A stretch of DNA of 64,000 bases from Bryum argenteum. Its lineage: Eukaryota > Streptophyta > Bryopsida > Bryales > Bryaceae. Each line of letters begins with the position of its first letter. Positions within the stretch are counted from its first letter, which is position 1. Position numbers and translations under genes: made by a program. The notes under the pieces were generated by a model. It saw nothing but the letters and a program-made list of their open reading frames with translations. It ran no database searches and was not told where the DNA came from. Below, piece after piece: positions 10,172 through 40,320 of the stretch. The stretch spans positions 17,209,495-17,273,494 of the forward strand of contig CM073328.1 in NCBI GenBank assembly GCA_037043015.1, written 5' to 3'.

Positions 10172-10258
10172 ATGGATTCGGATGGTGTTTACGAAGACAA
10201 TTCGAAGAGCAATGTCTATGTAGGAACGACAACCATCAGTCCAATTCTGAGTGCGTAG
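10172..10258 (+). CDS. Micropeptide A1, family 1 class I (28 aa)
   Basis: The ORF starts in AAGACATGG context and begins MDSDGVYEDNSKSNVYVG, followed by a short TTTI-containing tail. It is nearly identical at its N terminus to A3 (MDSDGTCEDNSKNNVYVG) and similar to B2, C2 and D2 (MDSDGN..SDGSKTNTYNPP). The YNPP of the other copies is replaced by YVGT. It is hydrophilic and has no signal peptide. It is the first ORF behind the array A promoter. Function unknown. Confidence 0.5.
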   Translation: MDSDGVYEDNSKSNVYVGTTTISPILSA

Positions 10259-10398
10259 TGGAGGTTTTGTAGTTGTTGGAGCTCGTAAGTTTCCTGTTGT
10301 GAAGTTTTCTGCAGTGCGCTTGCATACTCTGCAATTGCAAGTGCCTTTGAGTCGTAGCGTTTACTATCTGTAACATATCAAGTAGTAGTTGTGTAGAC

Positions 10399-10497
10399 AT
10401 GGGTGAAGACGCGCCCAAGACTGACACTTTCAACCCTCCGCCGAGTCCGCCGCCTGTATGCACCGATGATCTTCCTGTGGATACCGCCCTGGACTGA
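10399..10497 (+). CDS. Micropeptide A2, family 1 class III-like (32 aa)
   Basis: It starts MGEDAPKTDTFNPPPSPPPV. The TDTFNP core matches class II/III ORFs elsewhere, but the WPVGRPV tail is replaced by a CTDDLPVDTALD ending, so it is a diverged member. It lies 140 nt after A1 on the same strand, in GACATGG context. The partner ORF A4 has the same N-terminal layout (E-D-A-P-K-[ST]-D-T) and keeps the tail. Function unknown. Confidence 0.45.
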   Translation: MGEDAPKTDTFNPPPSPPPVCTDDLPVDTALD

Positions 10498-10648
10498 GCA
10501 TGTGTGTCGATGCGGAGATCGTGGGGCCAGGATTCTTCGAAGCGCATTCAATTGTTGCAATTCCCCCTCTCAGCAGTTTCCGGTTCTGAGTGGTTCAGTG
10601 TTGTAGTGATCTTTCCGGCGTCATTACCTTAGTTTCTCTTATAGAGTC

Positions 10649-10726
10649 ATGGATTCCGATGGCACCTGCGAAGACAATTCGAAGAACAACGTTTATGTAG
10701 GAACGACAACCATCATTTGTAAGTGA
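10649..10726 (+). CDS. Micropeptide A3, family 1 class I (25 aa)
   Basis: It begins MDSDGTCEDNSKNNVYVG and ends after TTTIICK. It is the paralogue of A1 created by the internal doubling of array A. Base differences between A1 and A3 leave the frame open, although the two stop at different codons. The start context is GAGTCATGG. No targeting signal is visible. Function unknown. Confidence 0.5.
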   Translation: MDSDGTCEDNSKNNVYVGTTTIICK

Positions 10727-10858
10727 GTAGTGAAGGTCCTGTAGTTGTTGGAGCTCGTGAGTCCCTGTTGTGAGGTTTTCTGCAGTTTTAGCATACTCTA
10801 GAATTTTGAGTCGTAGCGTTCTTTTTCTGCAACATATCAAGTTAGAAGTAGTGCAGTG

Positions 10859-10966
10859 ATGGATCCTGAAGACGCGCCTAAAAGCGACACTTACAACCCT
10901 CAGCCGAGGCCGCCGCCGCCTGTCGCATGGCCCGTCGGTCGTCCTGTGAGTACCGCTCATGGGTGA
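10859..10966 (+). CDS. Micropeptide A4, family 1 class III (35 aa)
   Basis: It begins MDPEDAPKSDTYNPQPRP, then has a short polyproline run, then VAWPVGRPVSTAHG and a stop. The SDTYNP core and the WPVGRPV-x-TAHG tail are shared with B4 and C4, and in altered form with D4. It is the last ORF of array A. The GTGAGT inside GRPVS is a good 5' splice-site match, but B4 and C4 lack it, so I read it as coding. Confidence 0.58.
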   Translation: MDPEDAPKSDTYNPQPRPPPPVAWPVGRPVSTAHG

Positions 10967-11400
10967 GCATGTGTCATGTTGGATGTCAATGCGGAGATGG
11001 CATCGTCGTCGGGGTCCCAAGAGCCTGATTGGCATGGAACTGCCATGCTATGGAGCCTTATCTTCTCGATGCCGCATGCGAGTGACCTTCTCCTTCGATG
11101 ATGGTGACCGTGTGTATCTACATTGTCGAGGAGATGACTTGCAAGGGACGCATCCACTGGGAAAGACGAGCATCTCTCAAGGATCTTGTAATTGCGGGAG
11201 TATTGGACGTCATGGCGGTCTGCATCCTCCCGGGGACATTGAAACAGAAAGGGGCATTCCCCATTCTATCGCCATGTGACATCCTCCATTTGCCAGTGTG
11301 GAAGTATTTTCCACATTCGCGCACCATTGTAGGCTTAATTAAGCCGCCGACTCCATCAACTACGACGTGAGGAGGCGATACATACCATTAGCTGCATACC
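10967..11400 (+). other. Conserved 3' block of the micropeptide array, coding status unclear
   Basis: This block follows the last micropeptide in every array copy. In one frame it reads WHRRRGPKSLIGME here and RRRHPKSLI-x-M/L in copies B-D. A second frame reads IKPPTPSTT here and IKPPTLSTT in copy B. The frames are offset between copies by small indels, so one protein does not explain all of them. It may be a 3' UTR with residual coding ancestry. Confidence 0.3.
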
Positions 11401-11824
11401 AATTCGGTATACACAAATATATCACTATACTGTAGAGATATTGTTAACTCGACAGATACTATTTAGCTATCGCAGTACACAGAAGACAGTCTCTGTCGCA
11501 TCCTGTAGAATTCTCCCATACCATACAGGGCAGATCAATTTTTGACCCCTCAAACCGGCAGATACTATAGGATAGTCTCTATGTTTCTTTGTTTCTAAAA
11601 ATCATACAAAGTTCGTCCTGATTGACATTGTGTACAACACCTCCATCGATGATCTCCAGGCCAAATTGCTCTGGTTCTTAATGTATTTCTCAAGCGTTTG
11701 ATACATTGATTGGTTGAAAAAGAAGAAGATACCTTCCGAACAGGCCTTTCTAAGTAACTAATCGGAGAATCAAAGTCTGATCCACATTGTCGCTGGCCAT
11801 AGCCACATTGAAAAACTCTGTTAC

Positions 11825-12115
11825 GGTCCGCCCTAACAAATCATTCTCAGCCATAGCTATGCAAATGCGACGATCTTAATTTGAATAAACTTAGTGTCCT
11901 CGCAAAGAAATAATTAATTGGCAAACCCTGCGATTATCCTCCCTTATATTGTTAGCTGCGCCCTGCATTGGCTCCGCCCTAATAACTCAATCTCAGCCAT
12001 AGCTATGTCAGTGCGACGAACTTAATTTGAATAAACTGAGTGTCCTTGCAAAGCAATAATTATCTGGCAAACCCTGCGATTATTCTCTCCGTAATTGTTT
12101 ACTGCGCCCTGCATT
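11825..12115. repeat. 145-bp unit, two tandem copies
   Basis: Units at 11825-11969 and 11970-12115 both run from TCCGCCCTAA through TCTCAGCCATAGCTATG, TTAATTTGAATAAACT and CAAACCCTGCGATTAT to GCGCCCTGCATTG. The AGCCATAGC phrase also occurs once, downstream of the other array copies (28677, 34940, 41150). The duplication is therefore specific to copy A. Confidence 0.75.
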
Positions 12116-12403
12116 GAGCGGAAACCCCTGCCCAGACCACGAACCCTAAGAGGAAACTGCTGCTGCACGTAGCAACGTAGCCTTGGCCACATTGACGACT
12201 CCACTTTCAGCGCTCCTACGGTCTAATCTCCGCGACACTTGCCCGTCAACAGCAATCAATGTTACCATCGGCCGACGCGAGTTACGGACACGCAAGGTCT
12301 GCGAGCGCTGCTGCAGACATGATCGAAATGTCTGTCAAGGAAACTTGCGAAGCTGGCAAGCTCGTTACCGGATGTGAAGAGACCAGGCGACGAAGCTTTT
12401 ATC

Positions 12404-12977
12404 CGATGGTGGATGATAATAGATGGATGATAGTAGAGAGATGATGATAATAGATTGATGATAGTAGATGGATGATAATAGATGCATGATAGTGAGTATC
12501 AATATGCATGATAGTCGATGGATGATAATAGATGGGTGATAGTAGATGCATGATAGTTGATGGATGATAATCGATGGATGATAGTAGATGGATGATCGTA
12601 GGATAGATGATATTTGGTGGATGGTTGTAGATAGATGATAGTTGATCGTTGATCGTAGAAGAATGCTAATCGATGGATGATCATAGAGGAATGATAGTCT
12701 ATGGATGATGGTAGATGGATGACAGTATATGGATGATGGTAGATGGATGACAGTATATGGATGATGGTAGATGGATGACAATATATAGATGATGGTAGAT
12801 GGATGACAGTATATGGATGATGGTAGATGGATGACAATATATGGATGATGGTAGATGGTTGACAGTCGGTATATGGATGATGGTAGATGGATGATGGTAG
12901 ATGGATGATGGTAGATGGATGATGGTAGATGGATGATGGTAGATGGATGACGATCGATGAATAATAATCGTTGGATG
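12404..12977. repeat. GATG-rich minisatellite, core unit 14 bp
   Basis: A long run of GATGGATGATAGTA-type units. Between about 12883 and 12947 it is a clean 14-bp repeat, ATGGATGATGGTAG. Because the unit lacks stop codons on the minus strand in any frame, long minus-strand frames rich in Ile, His, Ser and Tyr stay open. I read these as artefacts of the repeat, not genes. Confidence 0.85.
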
Positions 12978-14589
12978 GTGTTTTGTTAGTATTTTTATGA
13001 TCGACCCCATTTGAGAGTGACATCAAATTTTGTCCTGTGAGAGGGTAGCTTTTGCTTTATATTGTTTCCTTCTCTTTTTTCAAAGAAAAAAAAACAAACC
13101 CAATTGTAACCTTTGAGATCTATTGTGTAAACCATGCACAAAGACAAATGTAATTTGATGAAGTTTTTGTACACTCTAGTTAAATATGATACTTTTGGGT
13201 CAGATAGAAAGAAACAATCTCCCCAAGAGGACATTATTAAGTGTATTACGAACAAGGACTTGAACACCAAGATTAAAATATTACATTATGATTAAATGTG
13301 GGTTCTTATATAACCACACTAATAAGAGTTCAGTGCTTGCATCATTAAATGCAAACCATAAAAATCATTATCAAAACATATTTTCAAGATTCCAGTCGCT
13401 TGATCCAATACATATTAGATGCACATGTTGAGTATACTCAGCTACGAACTATAGAATAGTTTTCCATGCCTTGGGTTTTAGGCTTCGACTAATATGAGCT
13501 TCAAAACATAGCTAAATTTGTTCTCAAGTGAGTTCCATAGATACATATTCTTGACCAAGTGATCGGAATTGGATATGCATGCCTATATTTTCATGTTGTA
13601 TGATACTGAGTTGTATATTATTATTATATAGAAACCCTTTAAGTTGCATATATTTCAAAACAATAAGAGTCGCTTTACACTATGAACTATGAAGATTGAC
13701 CATGGCCTTTTTTAAAATTTGTAATTGGAAAATAAAATGCTCTTGGTCCCATTTGGCCTTATATTACCTTGAAAGAAGAAAAAGGGCCATTAACTTTGAG
13801 GTTCTTAAAATATGCTAAATTTTCCATAGTGAATATTGTTTTCATGGTCTCGTTGAATATGGTTGAGTCTAAGCAAATGCCTCGACACAACTACAATCAA
13901 GAAGACCATGAGACTCAAAAATCATTCATTGGCTAGTGTTCAATTAATAAAAACTAATAAAGAAAAGTGGGAGGGTATCAGAGAGAATGATGAGGATTTC
14001 TATTAAAAAATTGTGTCAACCCTTGAACCCCCAAGGGAGGTTTAGAGCATAGAAATAAAACTTTTTGCAAAGTTTCATAAATGAAAATGAAGGAAGCTAT
14101 TTAAATATCAATCGTACAATCTTGTGGTATACTTGTTGTAAGCCATGTGGATCAAATATGGTATCATGAAGCCTTCAACTATAGATTACGAGATCGTAAC
14201 AAATTGGTACTAAAAAATCACAAAACTTCAGCATTTTCAGTTTGAAGTGAAAGTGCTGTTAACAAACATATTGCAATGAAAAATATTTAGAATGCAAGTT
14301 TGTCCAACCTCATCTCAACAACACTCTTGTACAGAAAAAATCCATCAAAGAATAACATGGCTAAAATAATAGCCTGACAAGGGTGAAAATTGCCAAAATA
14401 TTCAGAAGGAAAAAGGGTCCAAATCTACACACATTGCACTCAAATTCTTGCCTAATCATCAAAACACATTCAGCTAGGTTAAAGTCTTTACCACTTAAAC
14501 TAGAATCTTTATATGGAACCTATCCCAAAAAACAAAGTTGAAATCCAAAACTGAATGAAGGAGATAAAGCTCAGTCATGACCTCCCCGC
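12978..14589. other. AT-rich intergenic DNA
   Basis: No gene recognised on either strand. The stretch ends where the subterminal repeats of the large transposon begin. Confidence 0.4.
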
Positions 14590-14870
14590 AATTGTGGTAG
14601 TCTTGCCGCAGTACAGTTACAGTAATGCGGCCAACAATTAACAGTATAGTACACACATTGTACTGTTGCAGTATTGCGGCTAGTACGTTAATCACAGTGT
14701 AAGTGCAATGGTGATGTTTATCCAAATTTCGTATAGTATTGTGCGCTGTAATTGTACTGCTACGATATTGTCATTGTATTGATAGTATATCATTGCAGTA
14801 ATATTCAGCAACAATTAATTTAAACTGTTTTTGAAGTGATGCAGTATTGAGGCAACATTGAAACAAGTAA
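14590..14870. repeat. Left subterminal repeat region of the transposon
   Basis: It contains GTACTGTTGCAGTATTGCGG, GATGCAGTATTGAGGC and related GCAGTA motifs in a 280-bp stretch. The same words occur inverted at 23.84-24.09 kb. Confidence 0.6.
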
Positions 14871-16880
14871 ATAGAATGTCCAAAATAATGGATTGAATAA
14901 TATCTAAAATGACCTTCTGAATAGATTCTGGACAATTTGAAAAGTTTTTATGCATTAGATTTTGACATCATTCACATGTGTCAAATAAATACATTTCACA
15001 TAACTCAAATTGTGTCACAAACAATACATTTGATGGTATTTCAAATGAGTACAAATTTCTTTTAATACCAGTTGAACTTTTTTGCATTGGCTCTTGCACT
15101 CAATCGCCATTTATCCTTAGAGAATTTGCACAAGTCCATATCAAATAAGGAGGCTCTAATCCTGCTGCGTCCTCTACTAAGTAATCTCACACTTGACTAG
15201 CGAAGGCTTCATATCATCATCGTGCTTTGCTCTTGGATAGTTTTTGGTGTACTCTCTGTAAACACAACAACCGGATGAGAACCCACAAAATAACATAGTC
15301 ACTTCAAATGAACCGACATCCGATATAAGAGCCCACATCCACTAGAACAACTAATGCTATTGTTCAAGTTAACAGATCTAAACTCAAAAAATCATCTCAT
15401 TTACTGTGAATATCCCAAAGAATTTTGTTGGTGGTTAAATCATCCGCAAGAGCAGCAAATTTTTGCAAGATACTAAAGCCTGACCTTTCATGTAAGTACG
15501 TGAACTGATTGACATGACAACACAAAAAATTTGTATTTTACTTACAAATGCATCTCAAAATATATGCGGGCTTAAAGCAATTCTGAGTTGCTGATAAATT
15601 AAAACCTCCTATTACATATGAGAAATATCAAAGCTACATGAATGACTGTGTACCTTCTCCTACTTCATCCTTAGCCCTCCTTTCCATTGCCATCCTTGCT
15701 TTATCTTCGTCTTTTTCCTGGAGACAACAACAATAAAAATGGTAAGACCAAAATTTAATATAACTCATGTTCAAGATGCAGTTAAGAAAACTTTAAGAAA
15801 AAACTAAGAATCTATTATTCAAATTAGGAAAATAATTTCAAGAAAAACACAACTCCTCTTATCGATTCGCCTATTGAAAATACACTTAACATAACTCAAA
15901 AAAATTCACTTATTCTTCATCTTCATCACCCAAGACCTCATTGTATATGCCTTAGAAATCTCTTTCAGTTACAAGTTCAATTTTTCTTGACGTACTCTTG
16001 ATTGTTCATAATGAATTCTGCACACCTCGCCATTTCTAGTATATGAAATCCTTTGTTTTTCAAGTTTAAACCGCCATGCATTGCAAGATCTAATACATAG
16101 GTAGACCAGGCTAATTAAGATGTCAAAAGTCTTAATGTCGTTGTCGAAATAGAGAATTTTATTCCAAATTTCACACAACCAATAGCATCGCAGAAAGCGT
16201 CAGACTGAAAAGAATCATCTCCTTCACGCTGCCAACCGCAATCTTCGTACCAACTGTTGTCATGCTCTCCTTCTACATGGCAATCTCGTTGAGAGTGCTA
16301 TTGATTGACTTCGGAATGTCTAGAAGCCGCTACAAGGCATTGCGCGCTGTTGTTGAAAACCGCCCCGACGATTGTTTCTGCTAAGTAAGACCCGCTTCTT
16401 TAAGCCTACTGTCCAAGCCCTGTCAAAATGCTTTCGAGTAATGACATCGTCCTCGCCAATGTCAAAAGCACTGAAAATGCTTCCTTTCATCAACTCCTCA
16501 GATAAATACATACTATTTCTCTCATTTTGTAGACCAAGCATTAACTGTTTTGCAATCCTCCTCATATGTGAACAAATACAAGTCCATGTACAAACGTTAA
16601 GTTGAAAGTTGAGTTATTATTGATGAACAAGGACCTGCAACAACTTCTTGTAGGCCATCAGGTTTTGCACTTGCTGTTGGAGCTTCCTCACCATAGTTTG
16701 TATATTGTTGAGTGAAGTCCGGTGACCCGTGTTACGATTGCCACCGCCTCCATTACCATTGCCAATATTAAGATCTCGTGCTGGGATATCCGTGGTTTTA
16801 GTGACTGCACCTCTGGCTCCGCATACATGCATGCCTTCAACCATACTTGGAGCTGCAGTTATGCCTCCTACAATCATGAC
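14871..16880 (-). other. Minus-strand exon-like segments inside the transposon, unrecognised
   Basis: Several open stretches lie here. One at 16617-16877 encodes a Gly/Asn-rich piece followed by a heptad-like tail (NIQTMVRKLQQQVQNLMAY). One at 16320-16565 contains FSAFDIGEDDVITRKHFDRA. One near 15660-15715 reads KDEDKARMAMERRAKDEVGE before a GTACAC step. I do not recognise their sources. Given the LKR/SDH and ENR exons next door, they may be further captured exons. Confidence 0.3.
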
Positions 16881-16936
16881 ACAATCTCACATGATGTTAT
16901 AATTCGTTATGCTAGAAAATCCATTTACTTTCAAGC

Positions 16937-17103
16937 TTAAGCTGCAACATTGGTTGTCTTGGGAGCAGCTGTTGTTTTAGCAAGACATGGGTTTTCGACG
17001 TCAAATCCCATCGCATGTATTCGGTTATCGACATAGATCAATAATCCCCTTATCAAACTCGCCAGTGGTAATGACAAAAATGCAACTGTGTCGCCGACAT
17101 CAT
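16937..17103 (-). pseudogene. Captured 3' exon of plastid enoyl-ACP reductase
   Basis: After a consensus acceptor (TATCTGCAG) the frame reads DDVGDTVAFLSLPLASLI, then RGLLIYVDNRIHAMGFDVENP and a stop. This is the C-terminal region of plant NADH-dependent enoyl-ACP reductase (FabI/MOD1 type), whose family sequence is D-[ED]-VG-N-x-AAFL-x-SPLAS-x-I-x-G, then a VDNGL-x-AMG stretch. The catalytic Tyr/Lys region lies in earlier exons and is absent. The exon keeps its acceptor and stop codon, so it could serve as a terminal exon of a chimeric transcript, but alone it cannot be an enzyme. Confidence 0.75.
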
Positions 17104-17339
17104 CTGCAGATACCAAAAAAATCATGTGAATTTATCCCTCCGAATTGTCCTATCAGAAATCATTGTGCATTTTTTATTTTGAGAACTTCAAATGTAGGAT
17201 CTTGTTTAAATATATCCAATTAGTCTACCTCGCGAGTTCTACTGAATTTGTTTGCACAAATAGTAAGATATCTTCAGTCAAAGTTTCACTTTCTGTGAAA
17301 ACGGTAATTCTGTTTTACAGAGCTATATATAAGTATTGA

Positions 17340-18160
17340 GGAAGTGCCGAGCTCTTAAGCTCCTCTCCAGCAGCAAGAACAGCCTGCTTAGCAACACAGA
17401 AGCTCGTGTACATGTAAGCCAAGCCGATGGAAAGGAACGGAGTAGAATAACTCTGACTCAGTAAACCTACAAACCTAATTATGATCAACCACACGGATCT
17501 AACACCTTAAAAACAAATATTGTCCACCTTCAATTATCAAAGTAACATATTACTGAAAAAAACACCGTCAAATTACTAAGGTTGAGGTCTTTGATCACAT
17601 TCACCCAAGCCACGAAGGGCATCAATCATGCATGCGTATCCCGCAAATTGCCCATAATGTACACACCTCCCATTGCCATCTTTAATGAGTTCATAATCGA
17701 ACAAGGTTATACTCCTCTCAATCACCAAGACGTGAAACTAATGTTCGAATTGGTAACAAAATCCACATTATCCTGAACAACATCAGATAATAAAAGATGA
17801 ATCTAACGCTTATTAAAAATGAAAGATGAAGAGGAAAACCTTGTCAAGCAAAGACATGTCCTCGGGTTGTACTTTGTGAGTGTGAGAAAAGAAAACATAG
17901 GACATGTTCGTTAACAGGGTATCAAGCTGCATCACATTACCATGCCACTATATTAAAGCTTTGCTGAAGCTAAGACAATATCCACCGCTATCTACCCATA
18001 AGCTAATACTGAGAACTACAGGATGGTTCTCGCTCTTTAGATTGTTTGACTCTAAGAATCAGACCACAATCTGAGAGCTGGTGTACCGGCGTACTGAATG
18101 CTTGTGTCATCTCCATTATTAGCCACACTACCTTTCTTAACATAGGAGCAGATCGGCAAT
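17340..18160 (-). pseudogene. Captured 5' exons of lysine-ketoglutarate reductase/saccharopine dehydrogenase
   Basis: Four exon-like blocks in the right order match the LKR half of plant LKR/SDH, the bifunctional first enzyme of lysine catabolism. They are QLSDCGLILRVKQ (about 18039-18077), MSYVFFSHTHKVQPEDMSLL ending at 17840 before GT, RSITLFDYELIKDGNG with YGQFAGYACMIDALRGLG ending at 17605 before GT, and SYSTPFLSIGLAYMYTSF with AVLAAGEELKSSALP from 17466. GT/AG sites fit at 17604 and 17467 and restore phase. In-frame stops and loss of everything after the GEE-LP segment mark it as a truncated copy. The SDH half is missing. Confidence 0.75.
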
Positions 18161-26970: not shown

Positions 26971-27019
26971 AGTGCACAGGCATTTGGGTATGTGAGTCAA
27001 TCGAGGTCGCTTATAAATA
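26971..27019 (+). promoter_or_regulatory. Array B promoter
   Basis: GCATTTGGGTATGTGAGTCA followed by ATCGAGG leads to TATAAATA at 27012-27019. Copies C and D are almost identical, and A keeps the core. The first ATG is 141 nt downstream of the TATA start. Confidence 0.65.
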
Positions 27020-27152: not shown

Positions 27153-27206
27153 ATGGAGAGAGACGGATCCAAAAACAGCATCTACAATCCGAAAGAAACA
27201 AAGTGA
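27153..27206 (+). CDS. Micropeptide B1, family 1 short class I (17 aa)
   Basis: It encodes MERDGSKNSIYNPKETK and stops. The start context is TCTAGAGACATGG. The D1 peptide differs by one residue (K for R), and C1 by V for I plus a three-residue extension. It is the first ORF after the array promoter. The DGSK and YNP elements are shared with B2. It is basic, hydrophilic and has no targeting signal. Function unknown. Confidence 0.55.
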   Translation: MERDGSKNSIYNPKETK

Positions 27207-27333
27207 CCTTGTAGTTATCTTCCGCAGCCTGATCACTCGTGAGTTTTTGTTATTCTCATAATTATAGCGCCTCGGCAGATAGTCACTAGTGTTCTGCGAC
27301 CTGCGACCTGTGCACATGTTTGTTGCTAAAAAC

Positions 27334-27405
27334 ATGGATTCGGATGGCAACTGCGAATCTGACGGATCTAAAACCAACACTTACAACCCTCCGAAAGGGA
27401 AGTAG
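27334..27405 (+). CDS. Micropeptide B2, family 1 class I (23 aa)
   Basis: It begins MDSDGNCESDGSKTNTY and ends NPPKGK. An in-frame ATG 18 nt upstream (27316) would add MFVAKN, and copies C and D keep that upstream ATG in the same frame, so the true start is uncertain. C2 and D2 differ by substitutions and by in-frame codon losses, which fits selection on the frame. Function unknown. Confidence 0.58.
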   Translation: MDSDGNCESDGSKTNTYNPPKGK

Positions 27406-27550: not shown

Positions 27551-27610
27551 ATGGACTCATATGAAGACAAGCCGGTGACTGACACTTTTAACCCTCGGAA
27601 AGGGAAGTAG
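27551..27610 (+). CDS. Micropeptide B3, family 1 class II (19 aa)
   Basis: It encodes MDSYEDKPVTDTFNPRKGK. C3 differs by a single residue (A for V). The TDTFNP core links it to B4, while the KGK end links it to B2, so it looks like an intermediate or recombinant form. Array D has lost it. The start context is TCTAGAACCATGG. Function unknown. Confidence 0.57.
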   Translation: MDSYEDKPVTDTFNPRKGK

Positions 27611-27766
27611 ACCATCAGTTTGAAGTGAGAAGTGGGTGTCTTGCTTGTGAGTTTCCTGTTGTGAGATTTTCTGCAGTTTCATAACTGCTGCTCGCATACT
27701 CTGTAATTTCCAGTCATAGCGGTTACTTCATCTAGCATACTAAGGTGAAGTAGTGCCTCTAGAGAC

Positions 27767-27862
27767 ATGGACTACTCTGAAGACAAGCCGGTGACTGACA
27801 CTTACCACCCTCGACCTGTCTCATGGCCCGTTGGTCGTCCTGTGCATACTGCTCATGGCTGA
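27767..27862 (+). CDS. Micropeptide B4, family 1 class III (31 aa)
   Basis: It begins MDYSEDKPVTDTYHPRPVS and continues WPVGRPVHTAHG. The tail is shared with A4 and C4 and partly with the solitary 3.8-kb gene. The start context is TCTAGAGACATGG. It is the last ORF of array B. Pro and basic residues dominate the C-terminal half, which looks more like a short linear binding peptide than a folded domain. Function unknown. Confidence 0.6.
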   Translation: MDYSEDKPVTDTYHPRPVSWPVGRPVHTAHG

Positions 27863-28290
27863 GCCTCTGATCATGATGGATGTCGATGCGGAGGCTCTCC
27901 TCCTGGCGTCGTCGTCGACATCCTAAGAGCTTGATCAACATGGAAGCACCATCCTATCTAGCTCCATCTTATCGATGCCACATGCGTCTCGAACTGAAGG
28001 TCGGCCTTCTCAATGTTGGTGACCGTGGAGGAGACGAGTCCTCCACTTGAAAGCGATGGGAAGAGGAGCTCGTAATCCTCTCAAAGACATTGATACAAAA
28101 AGGGGCATTCCCTTACTACTTCTGTACAGCATTAATTCTTCATTTGTAATTATTTGTGTCGGTGTGGAAATGTTCACCACTGTAGGCTCCATTAAGCCGC
28201 CGACTCTATCAACTACACGCAGCAGTGAGGAGATGATACTGCCTCAAGTGCCGCATAGATCTGAAGCTCCCTGCTACCGAGCATAGCTGC
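27863..28290 (+). other. Conserved 3' block of array B
   Basis: It corresponds to 10967-11400. One frame keeps RRRHPKSLINMEAPSY then stops. A second frame (28047-28286) reads ARNPLKDIDTKRGIP and IKPPTLSTT. The frames do not join without a shift. It is probably 3' UTR. Confidence 0.3.
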
Positions 28291-29164
28291 GTACACAAAT
28301 TTATCATTACACTGTACAGATATTTGTTTTCTCAATTTCATTGAGATCAGAAGACAGCCTCTGTAGCATAGAGTAGAGTACTTCCATATTGGAACAATTC
28401 GGGGCTGATCAATTTATTTCTTGAATCGACAGCTACTGTTACACATACTGTGATATACTCAATGTTACTAAATTTGTTTCTAAGAAAATAAAGAGTACAA
28501 AATTTCTGTAGAAGCCACTGTTAAACTGAAGCACAATCTCTCCATCTACTTAACCCTGAACCTTCACTTTACAACCATTTAATCACCGAGTCGATCCTAT
28601 TACAGTCTACAGGTAATTGAAGAAATACCCAATCTTATCCAAATTGGCGCGCTGTCACCTAAATGGCCGCACCTCAGCCATAGCCACTCTGTTCACCGAC
28701 AAGTTATCGCTCGTGGCTCATCGAAAACCTAACTGCGACTTCTATATGAAATAATGTTGCAACTGTCAAATCAGCAATTGATGTCTACACTTTCCTAGCT
28801 GCGTACGACCTGCAATGAACGCCGAAACCCTAAACACCGAGAGGAGGTGCGAATAGCTTTTTCGAAACGGCGCCATCGATGTGCTCGTGCACCCTAATTA
28901 ATCCGCTACGGATTACGGAGCTCCTGTGGTGCTCGCCTATTAACAAAGATTAAAGCATCGGATTGATCGGAGGTAGCGACACAGGGGGTCAATTACTGCG
29001 TCTTCCTAGATGCTGCTTCCGTACGCCATACCTTAGCTGGTGCAGACATTATGCGAAACGGTTGTCCAGGAAAGTTGGCGCAGCTGGAGACAGACAGAGC
29101 TCGGTATCAGAGAATCCTGCTGCAGTTCGTCTCTGAAGCAATGTGGAACACATTTAGGGTGGGT

Positions 29165-31040: not shown

Positions 31041-31497
31041 GAGAGAATTTTTTGATGTTATGATTCTTCAAATGGTAAACATACAAGTGTCAATTGTTGG
31101 AACAATAATAGAAAATTAGTCTTAGGTACAGAATCTTGCGATTAGAAATCTTAGAAGTTCTACCAATCAATCCACGCCGTTCCTTCTACCTGTAACAAGT
31201 GTTTATAGTGAAGAAGTGGTTTGCGCCACTATTCCCACACCTTCTTTGTTTAGTTAATTGTTAGTATTGTTTGGTATGTTTCTATTTTTCTTTTGTGTAA
31301 AATAATTGGACCGGCATGTTGATTCCCAATAGTGTTTATTTCTTTGAATGTTTGTTTGATGCTTGTTTCATTGAGGGAACACCTCGAAAATATTTTATTG
31401 TGAACAAATAAAAAGCATGTAATGTAATTGACATAACAAATTGGCCTCATGGCCTTGTGAATTGGGTGGACTATGGTGGTCGACTTAATTTACGTCA
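31041..31497. other. Intergenic DNA
   Basis: I see no supportable feature here. Confidence 0.4.
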
Positions 31498-33194
31498 TAT
31501 GACCTCCAGCACTTGCCCCTAACCTGCCCACAAGTAACCTCTAGCATTTGCTACTAACCTGCCCCCTTCAAATTTTAGTTAGGCCGACATTTGGGCCCTA
31601 AACCTTGCCCCTGTTCTGCCCCCATGGTTTCGATGTACATTCAATTCTCATGTACACGATGTAGTTTCTCTCAGGTGGGGGAGAAGGAAAATTCTTAAGA
31701 AAAGCGTGACTTGTGAATTCATACTTGAACATCAAATGAAGGAAGGATGCACACGTATGTAATGCATGATGTCAAATATACTCCTACAATATCCAAATCA
31801 GACCATTTTTTTGATGCATCAGAAGTTTTTACACTTCTCCACAAGAGTAGAAAATACAAATAGCAGGATATAGTAGTAGCAACCTCACCATTTCAAGAGT
31901 CTCTACCTGTACATGTCAATCAAGCCTTGTGATAATTGTTAAAAACAAAAACACTCGTCCCTCAAAGTTGGATATTGGATGGAATACTGCAAGTGGATAC
32001 TAACAGGATCCGGAGATGATGGTGACAATAGACGGATGAATCCTCGACGTAAGACGAATGAGAGTTGGGCGAGAGGGGCGGAGTGGGGGGCGGACGCGCC
32101 GAAGCTCAACCAAACTCTGCAGGTCGGCAGCGTGGGTACCAAGCTTTCCGTGTCTGTACACAGACACCGATCTGTCTGCGCCACATTTGCGTCTGGAGTA
32201 TGTAGAAAGTGGATCTTAAGCCGTCTCCGCCACCACCGCGGGCAAGTTCCTGCTGATGACGACTCCGCCGCTGGGTCCTCGATAGGACGACAATCAAGCG
32301 TCCTGAGTCTGTGTCATAAAGCTCAAGCTCGAGGTTACGAGCAGTGTTGTGCAAGGGTATCTTGAATGTAATAAAGAACTGGATATGAGATACCCTTACC
32401 CGCTCCATGGATATTTCAGATCTACTCAACTGTTCAATTTTTCGTATCCTTGGTCGATGGTGAGGATAAGGTAAGGTAAAGGGACTTACCCTATGGTGAA
32501 CTTGCCTGAATGTCTGCTACTTACTTGAACTTGGACTTTCAATTAAATGTCTGCGCCATGCGTCATCTGCCCCCCCCCCCCCACTTGAAATTATGACGAC
32601 GGAGCTTCGATGACGATAAATATATATTAACGCATATTAAGGTTAATTCCATGTAATGCAAGTGATGCAATTGCACGCGAGTTTCAGCAAAGACATCAGT
32701 ACTGCACAACAAACACGTTGAAAATAATGAACTTCCTAGTAATTTTCGACCGGAAAGATTGACAGAGTAGCCAAGCTGCTGATGAATTGGCGGTGGGAGA
32801 CCATTTGTCAATTGCAGCAGCGGGGCTTTTCCTGGAAGCTCCTCTCCGCTTTTCGGTAACGGTCCCTCTATGTTTGGACAGCATTCTCCATGTTTTGATG
32901 CCGGAACGGATGCTGTTGCTGCTCGGAATTCAGCCCGCCATGTCCATGAATGTGGTCGGATTCAAACGGAGGGTTCAAGCTTGACAGCCCTTGTTCCGTT
33001 TCATGGCGAATCACCAACTACTTCACGTCTCAGTTCCAAAATATCTGCGAAACTGTTTTCAAAGTAACATATTTTGGGCTCCAGCTAGTTGCCAGTTCAG
33101 AAGCTCCGAATATGTCGTCTTAATATGTTAAATTTTTCCTGTCTGCCTTAGGTGGGTGCCGGGAAAGGCCAATCAGTAATTTGTCTGAGTGGTC

Positions 33195-33249
33195 AATGCA
33201 CAGACATTTGGGTATGTGAGTTGATCGAGGTCGATCGTCACTATAAATT
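33195..33249 (+). promoter_or_regulatory. Array C promoter
   Basis: CAATGCACAGACATTTGGG followed by TATGTGAGTTGATCGAGG leads to TATAAATT at 33242-33249. The first ATG is about 163 nt downstream of the TATA start. Confidence 0.65.
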
Positions 33250-33404
33250 CTAGACCCATTCCACGACATCATTCATCAAGCTTTGCTCTTAGACTTCCGT
33301 TGTGAGGCTTTCAGTGTTCCTCTCTGCAGTCTAAGCGTTGTTTTTTAGGCGATCTTCTCATACTTAGGATTTCTGTACACACGCATTGTTTCTGCTCTAG
33401 AGAC

Positions 33405-33467
33405 ATGGAGAGAGACGGATCTAAAAACAGCGTCTACAATCCGAAAGAAACAAAGTCCACCAAGTGA
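33405..33467 (+). CDS. Micropeptide C1, family 1 short class I (20 aa)
   Basis: It encodes MERDGSKNSVYNPKETK followed by STK. The extension arises because the stop of B1 and D1 is displaced by a nine-base in-frame difference. The start context is TCTAGAGACATGG. Keeping the frame through an indel of a multiple of three supports translation. Function unknown. Confidence 0.57.
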   Translation: MERDGSKNSVYNPKETKSTK

Positions 33468-33585
33468 TCTTGTAGTGATCTTGTTGTCTTCACCCGCTAG
33501 AAACTTGAGTGAATACTATCAGTAGTTATCCTCATATAGCGCCACTAGCGTCCTGCGACCTGTGCACATGTTTGTTGCTAAAAAT

Positions 33586-33654
33586 ATGGATGCGGATAGC
33601 AGCTGCGAAGACGGATCCAAAACCAACACTTACAACCCTCCGAAAGGGAAGTAG
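33586..33654 (+). CDS. Micropeptide C2, family 1 class I (22 aa)
   Basis: It begins MDADSSCEDGSKTNTY and ends NPPKGK. It is one codon shorter than B2 and two-residue changes cluster at the N terminus, while SKTNTYNPPKGK is unchanged. The upstream in-frame ATG (33568, adding MFVAKN) is conserved. Function unknown. Confidence 0.58.
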   Translation: MDADSSCEDGSKTNTYNPPKGK

Positions 33655-33816
33655 ACAATCGGTTTGAATTGAGAAGTGGGTGTCTTGCTCGTGAGCTTCC
33701 TGTTGTGAAGTTTTCTGCAGTGGGCTTCCATTAGTATCTGCTCGCTACTTCTGTAACTCCCAGTTCCTCTAAGTCATAGCGTTTACATCATACAGCACAT
33801 GATTGTCTCTAGAAAC

Positions 33817-33876
33817 ATGGACTCTTATGAAGACAAGCCGGCGACTGACACTTTCAACCCTCGGAAAGGCAAGTAG
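33817..33876 (+). CDS. Micropeptide C3, family 1 class II (19 aa)
   Basis: It encodes MDSYEDKPATDTFNPRKGK, one residue different from B3. The start context is TCTAGAAACATGG. It lies between class I and class III ORFs as in array B. Function unknown. Confidence 0.57.
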   Translation: MDSYEDKPATDTFNPRKGK

Positions 33877-34021
33877 ACCATCATTTTGGAGTGAGAAGTG
33901 GATGTCTTGCTCGTGAGCATCCTGTGGTGAGGTTTTCTGCAGTACTCTGTATACTCTATACTTTCCAGTCATAGCGTTTACATCATACAGCATATTAGAG
34001 AGAAGTAGTGTCTCTAGAAAC

Positions 34022-34117
34022 ATGGAGTCGTACGAGGACAAGCCGGTGACTGGCACTTACCACCCTCGACCTGTCTCATGGCCCGTTGGTCGTCCTGTGT
34101 ATACTGCTCATGGCTGA
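34022..34117 (+). CDS. Micropeptide C4, family 1 class III (31 aa)
   Basis: It begins MESYEDKPVTGTYHPRPVS and continues WPVGRPVYTAHG. It has the same length as B4, with substitutions D/E, YS/SY, D/G and H/Y. The start context is TCTAGAAACATGG. It is the last ORF of array C. Function unknown. Confidence 0.6.
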   Translation: MESYEDKPVTGTYHPRPVSWPVGRPVYTAHG

Positions 34118-34500
34118 GCCTCTGATGGTCTCTGATGGATGTCAAAACGAAGCCGCTCTCCTCCTGGCATCGTCGTCGACATTCCAAGAGCTTGATCGAC
34201 ATGGAAGTACCATCCTATCGAGCTACATCTAATCGACGCAACACGCGTCTCGAATTAAAAATCGACCTACTTGATGTTGGTGACCGTGGAGAAGATGAGC
34301 CTCCAATTGAAGGCGATGGGAAGAGGAGCTCGTCATCCTCTCAAATACATTGATACAAAAGGGGCATCTATAGATTCCCTTTCTACTTCTATATGGCATT
34401 CTTCAATTTGTAATCTTTTGTGTCAGTGTGGAAGTGTTCACCACTGCAGGCTCCATTCAGCCGCTGACTCTATCAACTACGACGCAGCCGTGTGAGGAGG
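34118..34500 (+). other. Conserved 3' block of array C
   Basis: The frame beginning at ATG 34138 stays open for 71 codons (RRRHSKSLIDMEVPSYRA, then EDEPPIEGDGKRSS). In copies B and D the same ATG leads to early stops. Coding status is doubtful. Confidence 0.3.
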
Positions 34501-35410
34501 TGATACTGCTTCAAGTGCCGCATAGACCTGAAGCTCTATGCTTCCGAGCGTGGCTCTGTACACATATTTATCACTACACTGTACAGATATTGTTTCCTCG
34601 ATAGCACATAGAACAGAAGACAGCCTTTGTAGCATAGTGTAGAGTGCTTCCACATTGGAACAATACAGGGCTGATCAATTTTCATTCCTTGAACCGACAG
34701 CTATTGTTGGACATATTGTGATATACTCTATGTTTCTCCATTATTTTGTTACTAAAGAAGTAAAGAGTAAAAAAATTCTGTGTAAGCGACTGATTGACAC
34801 AATCCCTCCATCAACCATGCAGTTAACCCTAAACCGACCATTTGATCACCGATTGAATCCTACTTGAGTCTACAGGTAATCTAAAAAACGCCCAATCCAG
34901 TCCAGATTGACGCGCTGTCATCTAAATGTCCGCACCTCAGCCATAACCACTCTGTTCACCGACAAGTTATCGCTCGTGGCTCACCGACAACCTAACTGCG
35001 ACTTTTGTGTAAAATAGTGTTGCAACTGTCCAATGTGCAATTGATGTTTACACTCTCCTCTTAATCGCTGGCTACGACCTGCAACGGACGCCGAAACCCT
35101 AAGCACCGAGAGGAAGTGGCCTCTGCAAAACGGTGCCATCGCTGTGCTCACAATGCTCGTGCAACCTAATAATCTGCTACGGGCGACGGAGCTCCCCCGG
35201 TGCAGGCTCCGCAGCAGCAATGAAACCATCGGAGTTTGCGCCACAGGGGGTGATTGAATGTATCTTAGATGCTGCTTCCGCGCGCCATAGATGGTGCAGA
35301 CTGCAGACACTAGCGAAACGGTTGTCCAGGAAAGTTGGCGCAGCTCGTTATCGGAAGTGGGAGAAAATTCCGCTGCAGTTCATCCCTGTGGACAAGACAA
35401 TGTTTAGATA

Positions 35411-35835
35411 ATAGTTGAACCATAACCGGTTGCTGTCGTTGTCAATGCTTACGTGGCTTCATCCCATTGCGCAACCCGTCCCATCACCATCACAAATTAC
35501 AACTCATAACCTTCTCTCCTATCAACTTGTATCCTACACCCTTGGATCATGAAGATCAAGGGTTGTGATTAAAGAGTGCACAACCGGTTATGAACGATAA
35601 CCGACTCGCCGCTACGCGGCTCGACCGGTTATCTAATCCATCATGGTATCATAGATAGGAGACGAGAAACTCGAACCTCTTTAGAGGTCAGCGTGAATAG
35701 AGTGTTCGAACTAAAAACATGAGGCATGTTTGACCATTGCAAACCAATTATGTGAAATCTAATTTGGTTATTGTGACTTTGTGTATAAGTAAGATTTCAA
35801 GATGAAAATCTCTAATTTTTTGGTTGGAATATTCT
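35411..35835. other. Intergenic DNA with a possible retroelement scrap
   Basis: ATCATGGTATCATAGATAGG near 35639 resembles the initiator-Met tRNA primer-binding site of plant Copia elements, and AACCGGTTAT phrases flank a 200-bp segment. No retroelement coding region is present, so the call is weak. Confidence 0.25.
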
Positions 35836-35910
35836 TGTTTTGAATAGCTAAGGTTTTGAATAGCTAAGGTTTTGAATAGCTAAGGTTTTGAATAGCTAAG
35901 GTTTTGAATA
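35836..35910. repeat. 16-bp tandem repeat, about 4.7 copies
   Basis: The unit TTTTGAATAGCTAAGG repeats head to tail and ends in a variant TTTTGAATATCTAA. Confidence 0.9.
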
Positions 35911-36650
35911 TCTAATAGATTTGCAATGATGTTTCTATGTTGAAAAAATTAATAAAATACACGATTTTGAGAAGTTTCTCATTCATATAGTAGATTTCAA
36001 TTTTGTTTGTTAGGTTGGATTTCAATTTGAATCTTTTTCTTATAGTAGAAACCTTAATTCCATCCAACATGTGAGGAAGATATGGCATGCATTTTTGTGC
36101 AAGGGGTTTAGTTTTGGACAAATTTTCTTTTATAGAATTTGAAGTAGTTTTCGCAAGGCCATTGTTTGCACAAAGGAATTATTCTCAAGGTTTTTTACTC
36201 TTCATGGGTTTTATTTAGATGAAGGTGACCATCTTTGTAGTTGGTAATTTTTTCATTGTTGTAATTCTATTGGTAGAATTTTCAATTCAAAGTAAGAATG
36301 TTGAAATTTTGTGATCTTTTTGAGGCCTCATGACTAAAAAATTGAATCATATGATGTAAAATATGTCTGCTACAAGATCGTACACATGAGATTGGAAAAC
36401 TTATATTTGTATCTATTTATGACACTTTTTAAATATTTTTAGCTACAAATGAGCCAAACCATTTATGGATTACTATAAATATAATTTATTGAAAAATTGG
36501 CTTCAACTACCATGTAAAGCCATTTGAGGCTTTGAGCTAATTACAAAAATTGGACAAATCACATGAGAGGATTTCTCCATGAATTGGCCTACCAATGGCT
36601 TGACTTCTTGTCTAAAGCGACCTTGGTTGTACTAACCTTATATTTTCAAG
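35911..36650. other. AT-rich intergenic DNA
   Basis: No gene or clear repeat recognised. Confidence 0.4.
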
Positions 36651-37526
36651 ATGTACAACTTAACCCTTGAAGCTTCAAGAGGTTGGATAGGTTTCCCTTT
36701 GGTAAGGCCTTTGTGTTCTCAAATTCTCAAGCATGAAGTTGGAACCTTTTGTAGGTTGTAAAGTTTACCCATACCATTCCAAATAGACCTTTTGTGCTTC
36801 AAAATTTCTCGCATAGTAAGAGTTGTTGACGGCCAAAGGTTGAAATTACTATTAGGGCATGGTGAAATGAGCCCAAATTCAATTAAATTGCATTAACTTC
36901 AAAATTTCACCAAACATTGAGATTTTAATTTATGTCAAATTTTGTTTATTGTACATGTAGAAGAGGTACCAAGGCATGATCTCACCATTTGGATTTTCAA
37001 TTCAATAATTTTGCATTTTTCTATTGTTTAAAATAGGCCTTACTTTTGATTTCCGCATACCTCCATGTAAAGAATCAAGCATTTCTTTTGGTTTTTAGGG
37101 TTTATAAGAGTTAGAAGCTAATTTCTAAATCACTTAGGATAAGTATTTGAAGAGCATCATGTCACAATTGGTTTTGTAGGTTTCATGAGGGTTAAAATTT
37201 AATTTCTAGATCACATAGGAATAAGTATTTTAAGAGCCTCATGTCAAAAGTTCTACCATGTTGGATATTTCGGACCTCTAACCAAAATATACCCTTTTTA
37301 CAACAAGCAAAAAGAACTTCATTTTCTACTTTCATCATTATGATATGAGGATCGGTATGGAATTTGAATCTAAAATTTGATATGCATATACATATACAAG
37401 TTAGATACTAGATCCTACTATTACATACTTCATAAAGTAGTGTAAAATGAAACTTCTTCCCGACGCATTGAAAGAGGATAGTTTTGAAGGTAATACATGC
37501 AATTTGTGCCTTAAAACCTTATGGGT
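36651..37526. mobile_element. Worn TTAACCC-ended element
   Basis: It starts near TTAACCCTTGAAG and ends near TTATGGGTTAA. The interior resembles the 1285-1742 element (GGAACCTTTTGTAGGTTG, TTTTAAGAGCCTCATGTC). The ends carry mismatches, so boundaries are approximate. Confidence 0.4.
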
Positions 37527-37749
37527 TAATGTGTGTACCACTAGATAGGAACACTTTTAACTGCATATTTTTCAATGGAAAAAACAAGTTATTTTCAATT
37601 ACTGTATAACCTTCATATCAGCAAGTAATTATTCTCTTTCTGCCAGAAACTTGACAGACACTACACATGACCTCCAGCACTTTCCTCTAACCTGCCCCTA
37701 CGTAGCCCCTGACCTTTTTGCCCCTAACCTGCCCCCTTCAAATCTTCGA

Positions 37750-38054
37750 TATGGTGAAACCACCTATCGTCGTGCACTTAAGGAAAATTGAGGGAATCTT
37801 TATACTTGGAAAGAGAAATGAGTGGGTTACTATTTTTCAGGGATGAGGAATAGGAAAAGACTCACTTTCCTTATTTTTGTGATTTTTAAAAAACACACAT
37901 AATTAAATACAATTTTTAGAAGCAGTAGCCTAAAGACGGGCACCCTAATTATGTTTGCATGAGGTACATGCAAGGGAGGTTGGATCTTTATGAAAAAAAG
38001 AATCTTGTGTGCACGCCTTTAGGTAGGTGCCCGTTTATAGGTGGTTTCACCATA
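37750..38054. mobile_element. MITE inserted in array copy D
   Basis: The ends TATGGTGAAACCACCTAT and its inverse ATAGGTGGTTTCACCATA match perfectly over 17 bp. The interior matches 29165-29470. The flanking block is continuous in copy B (CTTCAAATCTTAGAAAGACAG at 24841) and copy C, so those are empty sites. Confidence 0.8.
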
Positions 38055-39647
38055 GACAGACATTTGGGCCCTCAAACTTGCCCCTGTTGTGCCCCCATGA
38101 TTTCAATATAAACTCAAAATCCTCTTTTATACAATCTCTGGTAGGGGAGAAGGAAAGTTCGTATGTTGGATGAGAAATTGGATGGAGTATTGCAAGGTTG
38201 GCAAAACATGGATGAATTGGTGACGCGTTCCGTGGATGATGGTGACAGCAGACGGACGTCAGGCCTCCAGTGTGACGTGGTGGATGAATCCTCGTCACGA
38301 GATAGTGGATGAAATCTCGTCTTGAGACTGTGGATGAACGATCGTCATCGAACGGTGGTCATGAGACTGGTGACAGTCGTTTGAGGGGCGGAGAGGGGGC
38401 CGAACTGCCGAAGCGCCGGAGCTCAACCAAGTTCTGCAGGTCGGCAGCGTGGGACTCAAGCTTTCTATGTCTGTACGCAGACACCCGTTTGTCTGCGGCG
38501 CATTTGCGTCCCGAAGTAGGTGGAAAGTGGATGTGAAGCCGTTTGCAGGTGTCGGCTATTAATACTCTCGTCGCCACCACCGCTGGTCAACTCCTACTCT
38601 CTGGCGATGACTCCATTACTGGGTACTCACTTATAAAATCTCAAGAACTACCAAACGCCCAGTTCGACGTAAGTGCAGCGTAGTCCAAGGATATTACGGA
38701 TCTGATAGGGTACTAGATTTGAGATACCCTTTCCCCGTTCCACGGACATATCTAGTCAATTGTTGTATTTTTCGATATCCTTGGTCGATAGTGAGGATAA
38801 GGTAAGGTAATGGGACTTACTGTATGGATGTCTGTTACTTACTTGAACTCAGACTTTTTATTGTAAAAGATTGTCTGCGTCATGAGTCATTTGCACAGTC
38901 GTCATGATGACGGAGTTTCGACGACGATAAAAGTCAAAACATAAGGTTCAAATCACTTAATGCAAGTGCGGCAATTGCAATCGACTTTCAGCAAAGAGAT
39001 CAGTACTGCACAACAAACACGTTGATGATGATGAACTTCGTGGTAATTTACGACTCGATAAAGATCGACAAGTAAGCCAAGCTGCTGAGAAACTGGCGGT
39101 GGAGGACCAGTTGTCAAGTGCAGCAGCGGAGCTTTTCCTGGAAGCCCATCTCCTTTGGATATCATTCTCCATATTTTGATACCGGGACGGATGCTATTGC
39201 AGCTCCGAATCTCGCCCGCCCCCGTATCTCGCCCGCTCTAGGAGAACTTGGTGCTGCAATGGAGTGCTTGCAACTTGGAAGGGTAGCTACCCCAATGGCG
39301 ATCCATGGAGTCCTCATTATTTTAGAATTATGTCCCTTCTTGTAAGGGTTCCTACACTCTTTTTTTCTTTTTCTTTTTAGCTCGGGTAATTGCCTAGCTC
39401 CACCGGACATGACGGAGAAAGTTCAAGCTTGACAGCACTTGTTCCGTTTCATGGCAATTCACCAACTACCTTGCGTCTCACTGTCTCAGTACCAAAAAAG
39501 CTACAAAACAGCCTTTGATATAATATTATTTGGGCTCCAGCTAGTTGCCAGTTCAGAAGCCGCGAATGTCGTCGTAATATGTTAAATTTCTCATGTCTGT
39601 CGAGAGTGGGTGCCTGGAAAGGCCATTCGGTAATTTGTCTGAGTGGT

Positions 39648-39698
39648 CAATGCACAGACATTTGGGTATGTGAGTCAATCGAGAGAGTCCTATAAATT
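39648..39698 (+). promoter_or_regulatory. Array D promoter
   Basis: TGCACAGACATTTGGGTATG followed by TGAGTCAATCGAG leads to TATAAATT at 39691-39698. The first ATG is 154 nt downstream of the TATA start. Confidence 0.65.
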
Positions 39699-39844
39699 CT
39701 TGACCCATTCCACAACATCATCCATCAAGCTCCACTCTCAGAATTCCGCTGTGAGGCTTACAGTCTTCCATTCTGCAGTTCTTAGTGTTTGTTTTAAGCG
39801 ATCTTGTGTACAGACGCAATTAGCATTCTTTCTGCTCTAGAGAC

Positions 39845-39898
39845 ATGGAGAAAGACGGATCCAAAAACAGCATCTACAATCCGAAAGAAACAAAGTGA
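39845..39898 (+). CDS. Micropeptide D1, family 1 short class I (17 aa)
   Basis: It encodes MEKDGSKNSIYNPKETK, one conservative change (K for R) from B1. The start context is TCTAGAGACATGG. It is the first ORF after the array promoter. Function unknown. Confidence 0.55.
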   Translation: MEKDGSKNSIYNPKETK

Positions 39899-39992
39899 CC
39901 TTCTAGTTATCTTCAGCAGCTTGAAACATATAGCGCCTCGGTTCATAGCCACTAGTGTTCTGCGACCAATGCACATGTTTGTTGCAAAAAAC

Positions 39993-40058
39993 ATGGATTC
40001 GGATAGCAACTACGAATCTGACGGATCTAAAACCAACACTTACAACCCTCCGAAGTAG
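39993..40058 (+). CDS. Micropeptide D2, family 1 class I (21 aa)
   Basis: It begins MDSDSNYESDGSKTNTYNPP and ends with K. It has lost the two codons GK of B2/C2 without leaving the frame. In-frame upstream ATGs at 39975 (MFVAKN) and 39969 could extend it. Function unknown. Confidence 0.57.
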   Translation: MDSDSNYESDGSKTNTYNPPK

Positions 40059-40218
40059 ACCATCGGTTTGGAGTGAGAAGTGGATGTCTTGCTCGTGAGC
40101 TTTCTGTTGTGAGGTTTTCTGCAGTCGGCTTTCGATAGTATTGCTGGTATACTCTGTCATTTCCAGTCATAGCGTTTACTCATATAGCATATTAAGTCGA
40201 ATTAGTATCTCTAGAAAC

Positions 40219-40320
40219 ATGGACTCCTACGAAGACAAACCGGGGACCGACACTTACCGCCCTCCACCGCCGCCTGTCCCATGGCCTGTTGGTCGTCCTG
40301 TGAGTACCGGTCGTGGCTGA
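40219..40320 (+). CDS. Micropeptide D4, family 1 class III (33 aa)
   Basis: It begins MDSYEDKPGTDTYRP, then a short proline run, then VPWPVGRPVSTGRG. It is intermediate between B4/C4 (same N terminus) and A4 (polyproline linker), so the linker length varies in whole codons. The start context is TCTAGAAACATGG. The spacer before it still has the GTTTTCTGCAG and CTCTAG motifs of the others. Function unknown. Confidence 0.6.
   Translation: MDSYEDKPGTDTYRPPPPPVPWPVGRPVSTGRG

Follow-up and report, generated by a model that had tools for sequence, protein, structure and literature searches.

The moss Bryum argenteum carries, within the window of 64,000 nucleotides (nt) analyzed here (C8:17209495-17273494), four arrays of short open reading frames (ORFs) that encode related peptides of about 17-35 amino acids (aa). 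The arrays (A, B, C and D) lie on the plus strand, as found in an ORF listing, and include four ORFs each in A, B and C and three in D. Comparison of the copies supports, as the best reading, arrays that are protein-coding and specify micropeptides under purifying selection on shared transcripts. In its full form, the explanation regarded as probable is that the arrays are polycistronic micropeptide mRNAs read by reinitiation, that the peptides act in trans and that the ancestry of the arrays is single-ORF. A first-pass annotation of the window had described four plus-strand loci with three or four ORFs at a spacing of 94-162 nt; the listing confirms this layout, with 94-162 nt from each stop codon to the next main AUG, and the observation proves to be real and stronger than stated.

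Array A has a TATA-like box at 10030..10035, followed by ORF1 (10172..10258; 28 aa, NVYVG type), ORF2 (10399..10497; 32 aa, DTFNP type), ORF3 (10649..10726; 25 aa, NVYVG type) and ORF4 (10859..10966; 35 aa, DTYNP type with a WPVGRPV tail). The TATA box of array B (27012..27017) precedes ORF1 (27153..27206; 17 aa), ORF2 (27334..27405; 23 aa, or 29 aa if a weak-context in-frame upstream AUG at 27316 is used), ORF3 (27551..27610; 19 aa) and ORF4 (27767..27862; 31 aa). Array C is arranged similarly, with a TATA box at 33242..33247, ORF1 (33405..33467; 20 aa), ORF2 (33586..33654; 22 aa, or 28 aa from the in-frame upstream AUG at 33568), ORF3 (33817..33876; 19 aa, or 25 aa from the in-frame upstream AUG at 33799) and ORF4 (34022..34117; 31 aa). 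Array D includes a TATA box (39691..39696), ORF1 (39845..39898; 17 aa), ORF2 (39993..40058; 21 aa, or 29 or 27 aa from in-frame upstream AUGs at 39969 and 39975) and an ORF4-type frame (40219..40320; 33 aa); ORF3 was lost through a deletion that fused the ends of ORF2 and ORF3. The TATA boxes were located by pattern match, and the ORFs by ORF listing. An AATAAA polyadenylation-like signal is seen by eye in B (28487..28492, plus strand) and also in D, with none in C. The first-pass annotation placed the arrays behind one conserved TATA promoter; TATA-like boxes are indeed present in all four, but a promoter/leader block is common to B, C and D only. When this block of D was used as a genome query in a search for co-regulated genes, B, C and D were matched and nothing else.

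The ORFs of B, C and D are more similar to one another than the sequence between them. ORFs 1-3 are 92-98% identical (ORF1, 94-98%; ORF2, 92-96%; ORF3, 93% for B-C) versus 54-86% for leader and spacers (leaders, 69-86%; spacer 1, 54-84%; spacer 2, 73% for B-C; spacer 3, 81-86%). B and C differ at 19 of 297 sites in the ORFs compared to 144 of 493 in leader and spacers (Fisher p = 5e-16). The first-pass annotation had proposed the ratio of nonsynonymous to synonymous divergence (dN/dS) across array copies as a check; pooled over B/C/D it is 0.31, not near 1, from 31 differences at 152 synonymous sites and 38 at 550 nonsynonymous sites (Fisher p = 5e-6). A related signal comes from array A and a two-ORF array elsewhere in the genome (F, described below). 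In the 15-codon core shared by A1, A3, F1 and F2 (named by array and ORF), third positions account for six of the seven variable columns, the proportions of synonymous and nonsynonymous differences (pS/pN) are 0.317/0.014, and pairwise differences number 19 synonymous versus 3 nonsynonymous. The B/C/D columns and the A/F core combined give a Fisher p of 0.0025, a different test from the binomial applied to the B/C/D columns below.

In codon alignment, the indels in the B/C/D ORFs are multiples of three, while those of leader and spacers are of many sizes. The earlier claim that ORF lengths vary in whole codons thus stands for B/C/D but not for A1, A3, F1 and F2, in which the C-terminal tails differ through non-triplet indels. 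In a neutral simulation run at leader/spacer divergence and with leader/spacer indels, none of the 20,000 runs made under either of two indel settings keeps all four ORFs intact; with substitutions only, 0.5% of runs do.

The leaders and spacers are poor in AUG on the coding strand. With transcript starts assumed about 30 nt past the TATA box, and with the in-frame AUGs at 27316, 33568 and 39975 scored as ORF2 starts rather than spacer AUGs, the four leaders and 12 spacers (2,137 nt) contain 8 ATG versus 54 CAT. The corresponding counts are 47 versus 77 in the 3' regions (2,475 nt) and 47 versus 31 in the upstream 2,000 nt. The 11 spacers of A-D have 7 ATG versus 22.4 expected, a value as low being found in 0 of 1,000 dinucleotide shuffles; upstream sequence in the same test has 46 versus 38.4 expected. 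The density is 4.7 ATG per kb in the spacers versus 19.0 per kb past the last ORF. By locus, ATG/CAT counts are 3/10 in A, 1/13 in B, 2/16 in C and 2/10 in D, although B, C and D are of common ancestry and the four are not independent tests. A strand-specific scarcity of AUG that ends at the last stop codon is thus sequence evidence for scanning and reinitiation along one mRNA. The spacers had been described as changing freely, which is incorrect, as they are AUG-poor and carry an array-specific element of 35 nt. This element has seven matches in the genome at ≤3 mismatches, while the reversed control pattern has none. Five of the sites are in A-D spacers (one copy, from the genome pattern search, is at 27643..27677 on the plus strand), one is in the F spacer and one comes after ORF2 of F; each site immediately follows an array ORF.

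The start codons and peptides share further features. Each of the 17 main starts (15 in A-D and 2 in F) combines a purine at -3 with G at +4, in agreement with the common start context noted in the first pass, and the in-frame upstream AUGs at 27316, 33568, 33799, 39969 and 39975 are all without G at +4. In ORF2 of B, C and D, the weak-context upstream AUG (27316, 33568 and 39975) is conserved and adds MFVAKN to the peptide; it is possibly a second start used through leaky scanning. The initially proposed core, [ST][DN][TS][YF][NHR]P, fits 9 of the 17 ORFs (9 of 15 in A-D) but is drawn too narrowly and misses the others. A wider core fits 17 of 17, albeit fitted afterwards on these same peptides. 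The variants include NVYVG in A1, A3, F1 and F2, NS[IV]YNP in B1, C1 and D1, and TGTYHP in C4, and the common peptide core is of the form E-D-x-S/P-K...Y-N/H-P. Conservation resides in the middle of the peptide, while C-termini vary (KGK, PPK, ETK and STK). Five of the 17 peptides, plus one 3' ORF, were scanned against Pfam, with no match at E values up to 10. Secreted precursors such as CLE and RALF carry a signal peptide; no hydrophobic N-terminal stretch is seen by eye in the 17 peptides. An Aux/IAA degron was considered for the WPVGRPV tail of A4 and dropped, as the GWPP core is absent.

The family extends beyond the four arrays listed in the first-pass annotation. Searches of the genome (258.8 Mb in 25 contigs) and of the regions flanking the window add: (i) array F, at C8:13.499 Mb and 3.7 Mb away, a two-ORF array of the NVYVG type detected in a DNA search with A, (ii) G, a single-ORF paralogue of 31 aa on the minus strand of the window (3760..3855), with E = 0.045 in a protein search with A4, (iii) H, a 37-aa AUG-to-stop ORF on contig C3 that is a weak protein match to A4 (E = 2.2), the DNA downstream of it being alignable to the A-D 3' block, and (iv) I, a 28-aa ORF just left of the window, with E = 0.0026 against a 19-peptide profile run on window and fetched-flank ORFs. 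A profile built from A-D only and applied to 1,780 ORFs gives E values of 4.6e-10 for G, 6.5e-10 and 2.8e-8 for F, and 2.2e-5 for H; it gives I just 0.52, versus 0.54 for an unrelated ORF. Thus, on sequence similarity, G and H are well supported as single-ORF paralogues, while I is tentatively a family member because its peptide and leader resemble those of G. A TATA box is present in both H and I, and their leaders (142 and 214 nt, from 32 nt past the TATA box) have 0 ATG and 4 CAT each, which are small counts; H also has an ATG between the TATA box and the assumed transcript start. No clear TATA box is seen in G. No further members are found among the best candidates of the genome protein, array-DNA and pattern searches, which also left I unlisted. 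The number of family members is a lower bound, with 60 kb covered as regions outside of the window. Array F (L032:4497-6400) sits immediately 5' to a broken copine/RING (RGLG-like) copy, in what is a rearranged segmental copy relative to the window; in the window, the copine/RING gene is on the opposite strand about 4-5 kb past the last array.

A number of observations weigh against constrained ORFs that are read by reinitiation. The contrast between ORFs and flanking sequence is weaker for B-D (19 of 228 ORF sites versus 52 of 336 leader/spacer sites; Fisher p = 0.014), and ORF4 (83-92% identity among B/C/D) is conserved no better than the 3' region (82-92%). Since B, C and D are of common ancestry, the pairwise counts and dN/dS pairs are not independent. 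The codon-position bias of B/C/D alone is weak, with the third position accounting for 17 of 35 variable columns (binomial p = 0.07) and for 31 of 67 pairwise differences (p = 0.03). When pS/pN is scanned across B, C and D in sliding windows, the ORFs are not singled out, as windows outside them on either strand equal or exceed their values (10.8 at 28375-28449, minus; 8.3 at 29055-29129, minus; and 6.8 at 34644-34718, plus; compared to 5.0 at ORF1). With regard to AUG scarcity, the leaders alone are not significantly depleted (1 ATG versus 3.8 expected, with so low a count in 7% of shuffles), some AUG depletion is also seen in the 3' regions, if mild (47 versus 57.5 expected; 3% of shuffles), array A holds three AUGs in its leader and spacers, and the assumed leader of G (213 nt) holds 1 ATG and 3 CAT, again small counts.

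From the features above we infer a transcript extent, a mode of translation by reinitiation, a cytosolic site of action and a direction of evolution. One promoter would generate one mRNA, probably unspliced, with three or four micropeptide ORFs; for B, the predicted transcript is about 1.45 kb, from 30 nt past the TATA box to AATAAA. Ribosomes are proposed to initiate at the first AUG in strong context and terminate 17-35 codons later; they would then resume scanning over a spacer of 94-162 nt that is nearly free of AUG, and reinitiate at the next AUG in such a context. Translation would thereby yield several related peptides, apparently without signal peptide, with the E-D-x-S/P-K...Y-N/H-P core. 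As this core is constrained while C-termini vary, the peptides more likely serve as a short linear motif in trans than in nascent-chain stalling, and probably act in the cytosol as ligands of a protein partner. A single-ORF ancestor is probable for the arrays, since a two-ORF array and single-ORF paralogues exist. In this route, a single-ORF gene of the type of G, H and probably I would have undergone duplication of a leader-plus-ORF module, followed by duplication of whole arrays.

The 3' block that follows the last ORF was examined for both structure and coding capacity. A possible 3' hairpin past the last ORF of B (27878..27923, plus strand; arms picked by eye from the fold) has a stem of 8 base pairs (bp). 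Counted in A-D and H, leaving aside G and I, the stem is fully paired (8/8) in B, D and H and has 7/8 pairs in C and 6/8 in A, with one double change (T-A to C-G) in H. Fold z scores past ORF4 are mixed (-3.1 in B, -1.3 in C and -1.0 in D). The hairpin is thus a possible RNA element, on modest support at most. RNA structure in 8 of the 12 spacers gives z scores of -2.3 to +1.3 with no consistent signal, and the window has no match to any Rfam family at the gathering threshold. In the 3' block, a frame stays open over 46 codons in B (27904-28041), C (34165-34302) and D (40362-40499); the matching stretch of A is from 10998. This frame has a pN/pS of 0.67, and its first AUGs are at non-matching places; another frame has a pN/pS of 0.46 but is interrupted by stop codons. 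A longer coding frame in the 3' region is unsupported given this pN/pS, the starts that do not match and the sliding scan, and the open frame of the 3' block is probably not coding. A further locus, E (44211..44604, plus strand), is a copy of the 3' region only, with none of the array ORFs within the DNA match; it lies just downstream of a small ORF (43636-43968) that is without a Pfam match.

The main rival is alternative splicing, in which the spacers are short introns and mature mRNAs carry one ORF or several ORFs closer together. Consistent with this, a donor-like site, GT[AG]A[AG], recurs at a conserved position in 8 of the 12 spacers, and 100-154 nt from it a TAG or CAG precedes the next AUG by no more than 4 nt. 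Spacers A2, B1, C1 and D1 are without such a donor-like site, however, and the putative introns have 1 ATG versus 33 CAT in 937 nt, whereas sequence that is spliced out need not be AUG-free. The ORF stop codons are 26-36 nt before the donors and, thus, splicing of this kind could not fuse the ORFs. Splicing is considered unlikely as the explanation of the arrays.

Two other explanations are less compatible with the conservation of the peptides. The ORFs may act in cis, as upstream ORFs (uORFs) that limit reinitiation or stall ribosomes or as part of a translated regulatory RNA, with released peptides that have no function in trans. The middle of the peptide is conserved and the C-termini vary, unlike arrest peptides; G and H were detected by peptide and not DNA searches; and no conserved long ORF is downstream, the open 46-codon frame having a pN/pS of 0.67 and non-matching starts. 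ENOD40 (PMC4683094) is a precedent for a plant RNA with both short ORFs and RNA functions, and the 3' region of the arrays is well conserved (82-92%) with a possible short hairpin that has one double-sided change; even so, a purely cis role appears quite improbable. Decay of tandem repeats, with the open frames as chance leftovers of recent duplication, is compatible with arrays that are tandem duplicates and with spacers that are themselves partly similar. Yet the spacers have diverged by up to 46% with the ORFs still open and similar, the simulation gave intact ORFs in 0 of 20,000 runs, and the peptide similarity of G and H persists where DNA searches found nothing, which leaves decay a very remote prospect. 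Polycistronic micropeptide mRNAs under purifying selection remain the preferred reading.

Other features were noted in the window and genome. The neighbors of the arrays in the window include COG3, in addition to the copine/RING gene. A repeat of about 935 bp is found at 6352-7285 and 58456-59390 in inverted orientation (89% identical), with a third copy at L032:7135-8073 that is 97% identical to the second; it is probably a mobile element. Light-harvesting-domain matches number 90 at the exon level genome-wide, with several tight tandem clusters on contigs C2, C5 and C6, and ARF transcription factors have 15 exon-level matches at about eight places in the genome; both bear out the plant origin. 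For one LHCB protein, the top single-domain hits in the PDB are chains 8htu and 7xqp, of the moss Physcomitrium patens, while a two-domain chain, 9vfj, has the higher score over the full sequence and the lower one per domain. Marchantia polymorpha, with three ARFs, was rejected as the source on the number of ARF matches.

The main known case of a eukaryotic mRNA for several related micropeptides is one insect gene. If the reading proposed here is correct, the single- and multi-ORF members of one plant genome would reveal how such genes arise, and would form a natural set for the study of efficient reinitiation in terms of spacer length, AUG clearing and a conserved spacer element. The family would escape gene finders that leave very short ORFs out of account, and similar genes may be overlooked elsewhere. 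Gene replacement is routine in mosses; thus, the family is directly testable in this group.

Among plant systems, the conserved-peptide uORFs are short, AUG-initiated, constrained and read by scanning ribosomes. These uORFs precede a main ORF, whereas no conserved main ORF is downstream of the arrays. The two peptides of ENOD40 are not known to be related to each other. Rfam includes an ENOD40 model, and the scan of the window at the gathering threshold gave no match to this RNA structure. ENOD40 is a plant transcript that lacks a long ORF, codes for two short peptides and has a functional RNA structure (PMC4683094), and it is termed polycistronic (PMC10638237). ENOD40 is the nearest plant case found described, but it has two ORFs rather than arrays of related repeats. 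The first-pass annotation knew of no plant family with these sequences, and the full-text literature searched (most subscription papers and preprints being outside its coverage) agrees: among the matches listed, which include a paper on tobacco lncRNAs with small peptides (PMC9538394), a plant gene of such layout appears in no title or opening abstract, and six array peptide strings had no occurrence.

The closest likeness in layout is to the Drosophila polished rice (pri)/tarsal-less gene, which is described in PMC8435736 as an intronless mRNA of 1.5 kb whose four ORFs, of 11-32 aa, have the core LDPTGQY in common and encode peptides that bind the Ubr3 E3 ligase. Both systems have tandem ORFs for related micropeptides, with array B predicted to span about 1.45 kb and to have four ORFs of 17-31 aa; a shared transcript is, in the moss, predicted from TATA position and AUG scarcity. 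By contrast, none of the 17 peptides contains LDPTG or resembles the pri core, and pri is an insect gene, whereas here several paralogous arrays and single-ORF paralogues occur in one plant genome. The parallel to tarsal-less/polished rice that was drawn in the first pass thus holds for layout only, and the arrays are not members of the pri family. On balance, it is somewhat favored that the arrays represent the first nuclear family of polycistronic micropeptide genes in plants, in which genes of the type of G, H and probably I gave rise stepwise to two- to four-ORF mRNAs by leader-plus-ORF duplication, with spacer AUGs cleared by selection, to form a eukaryotic operon-like gene that arose independently of insect pri.

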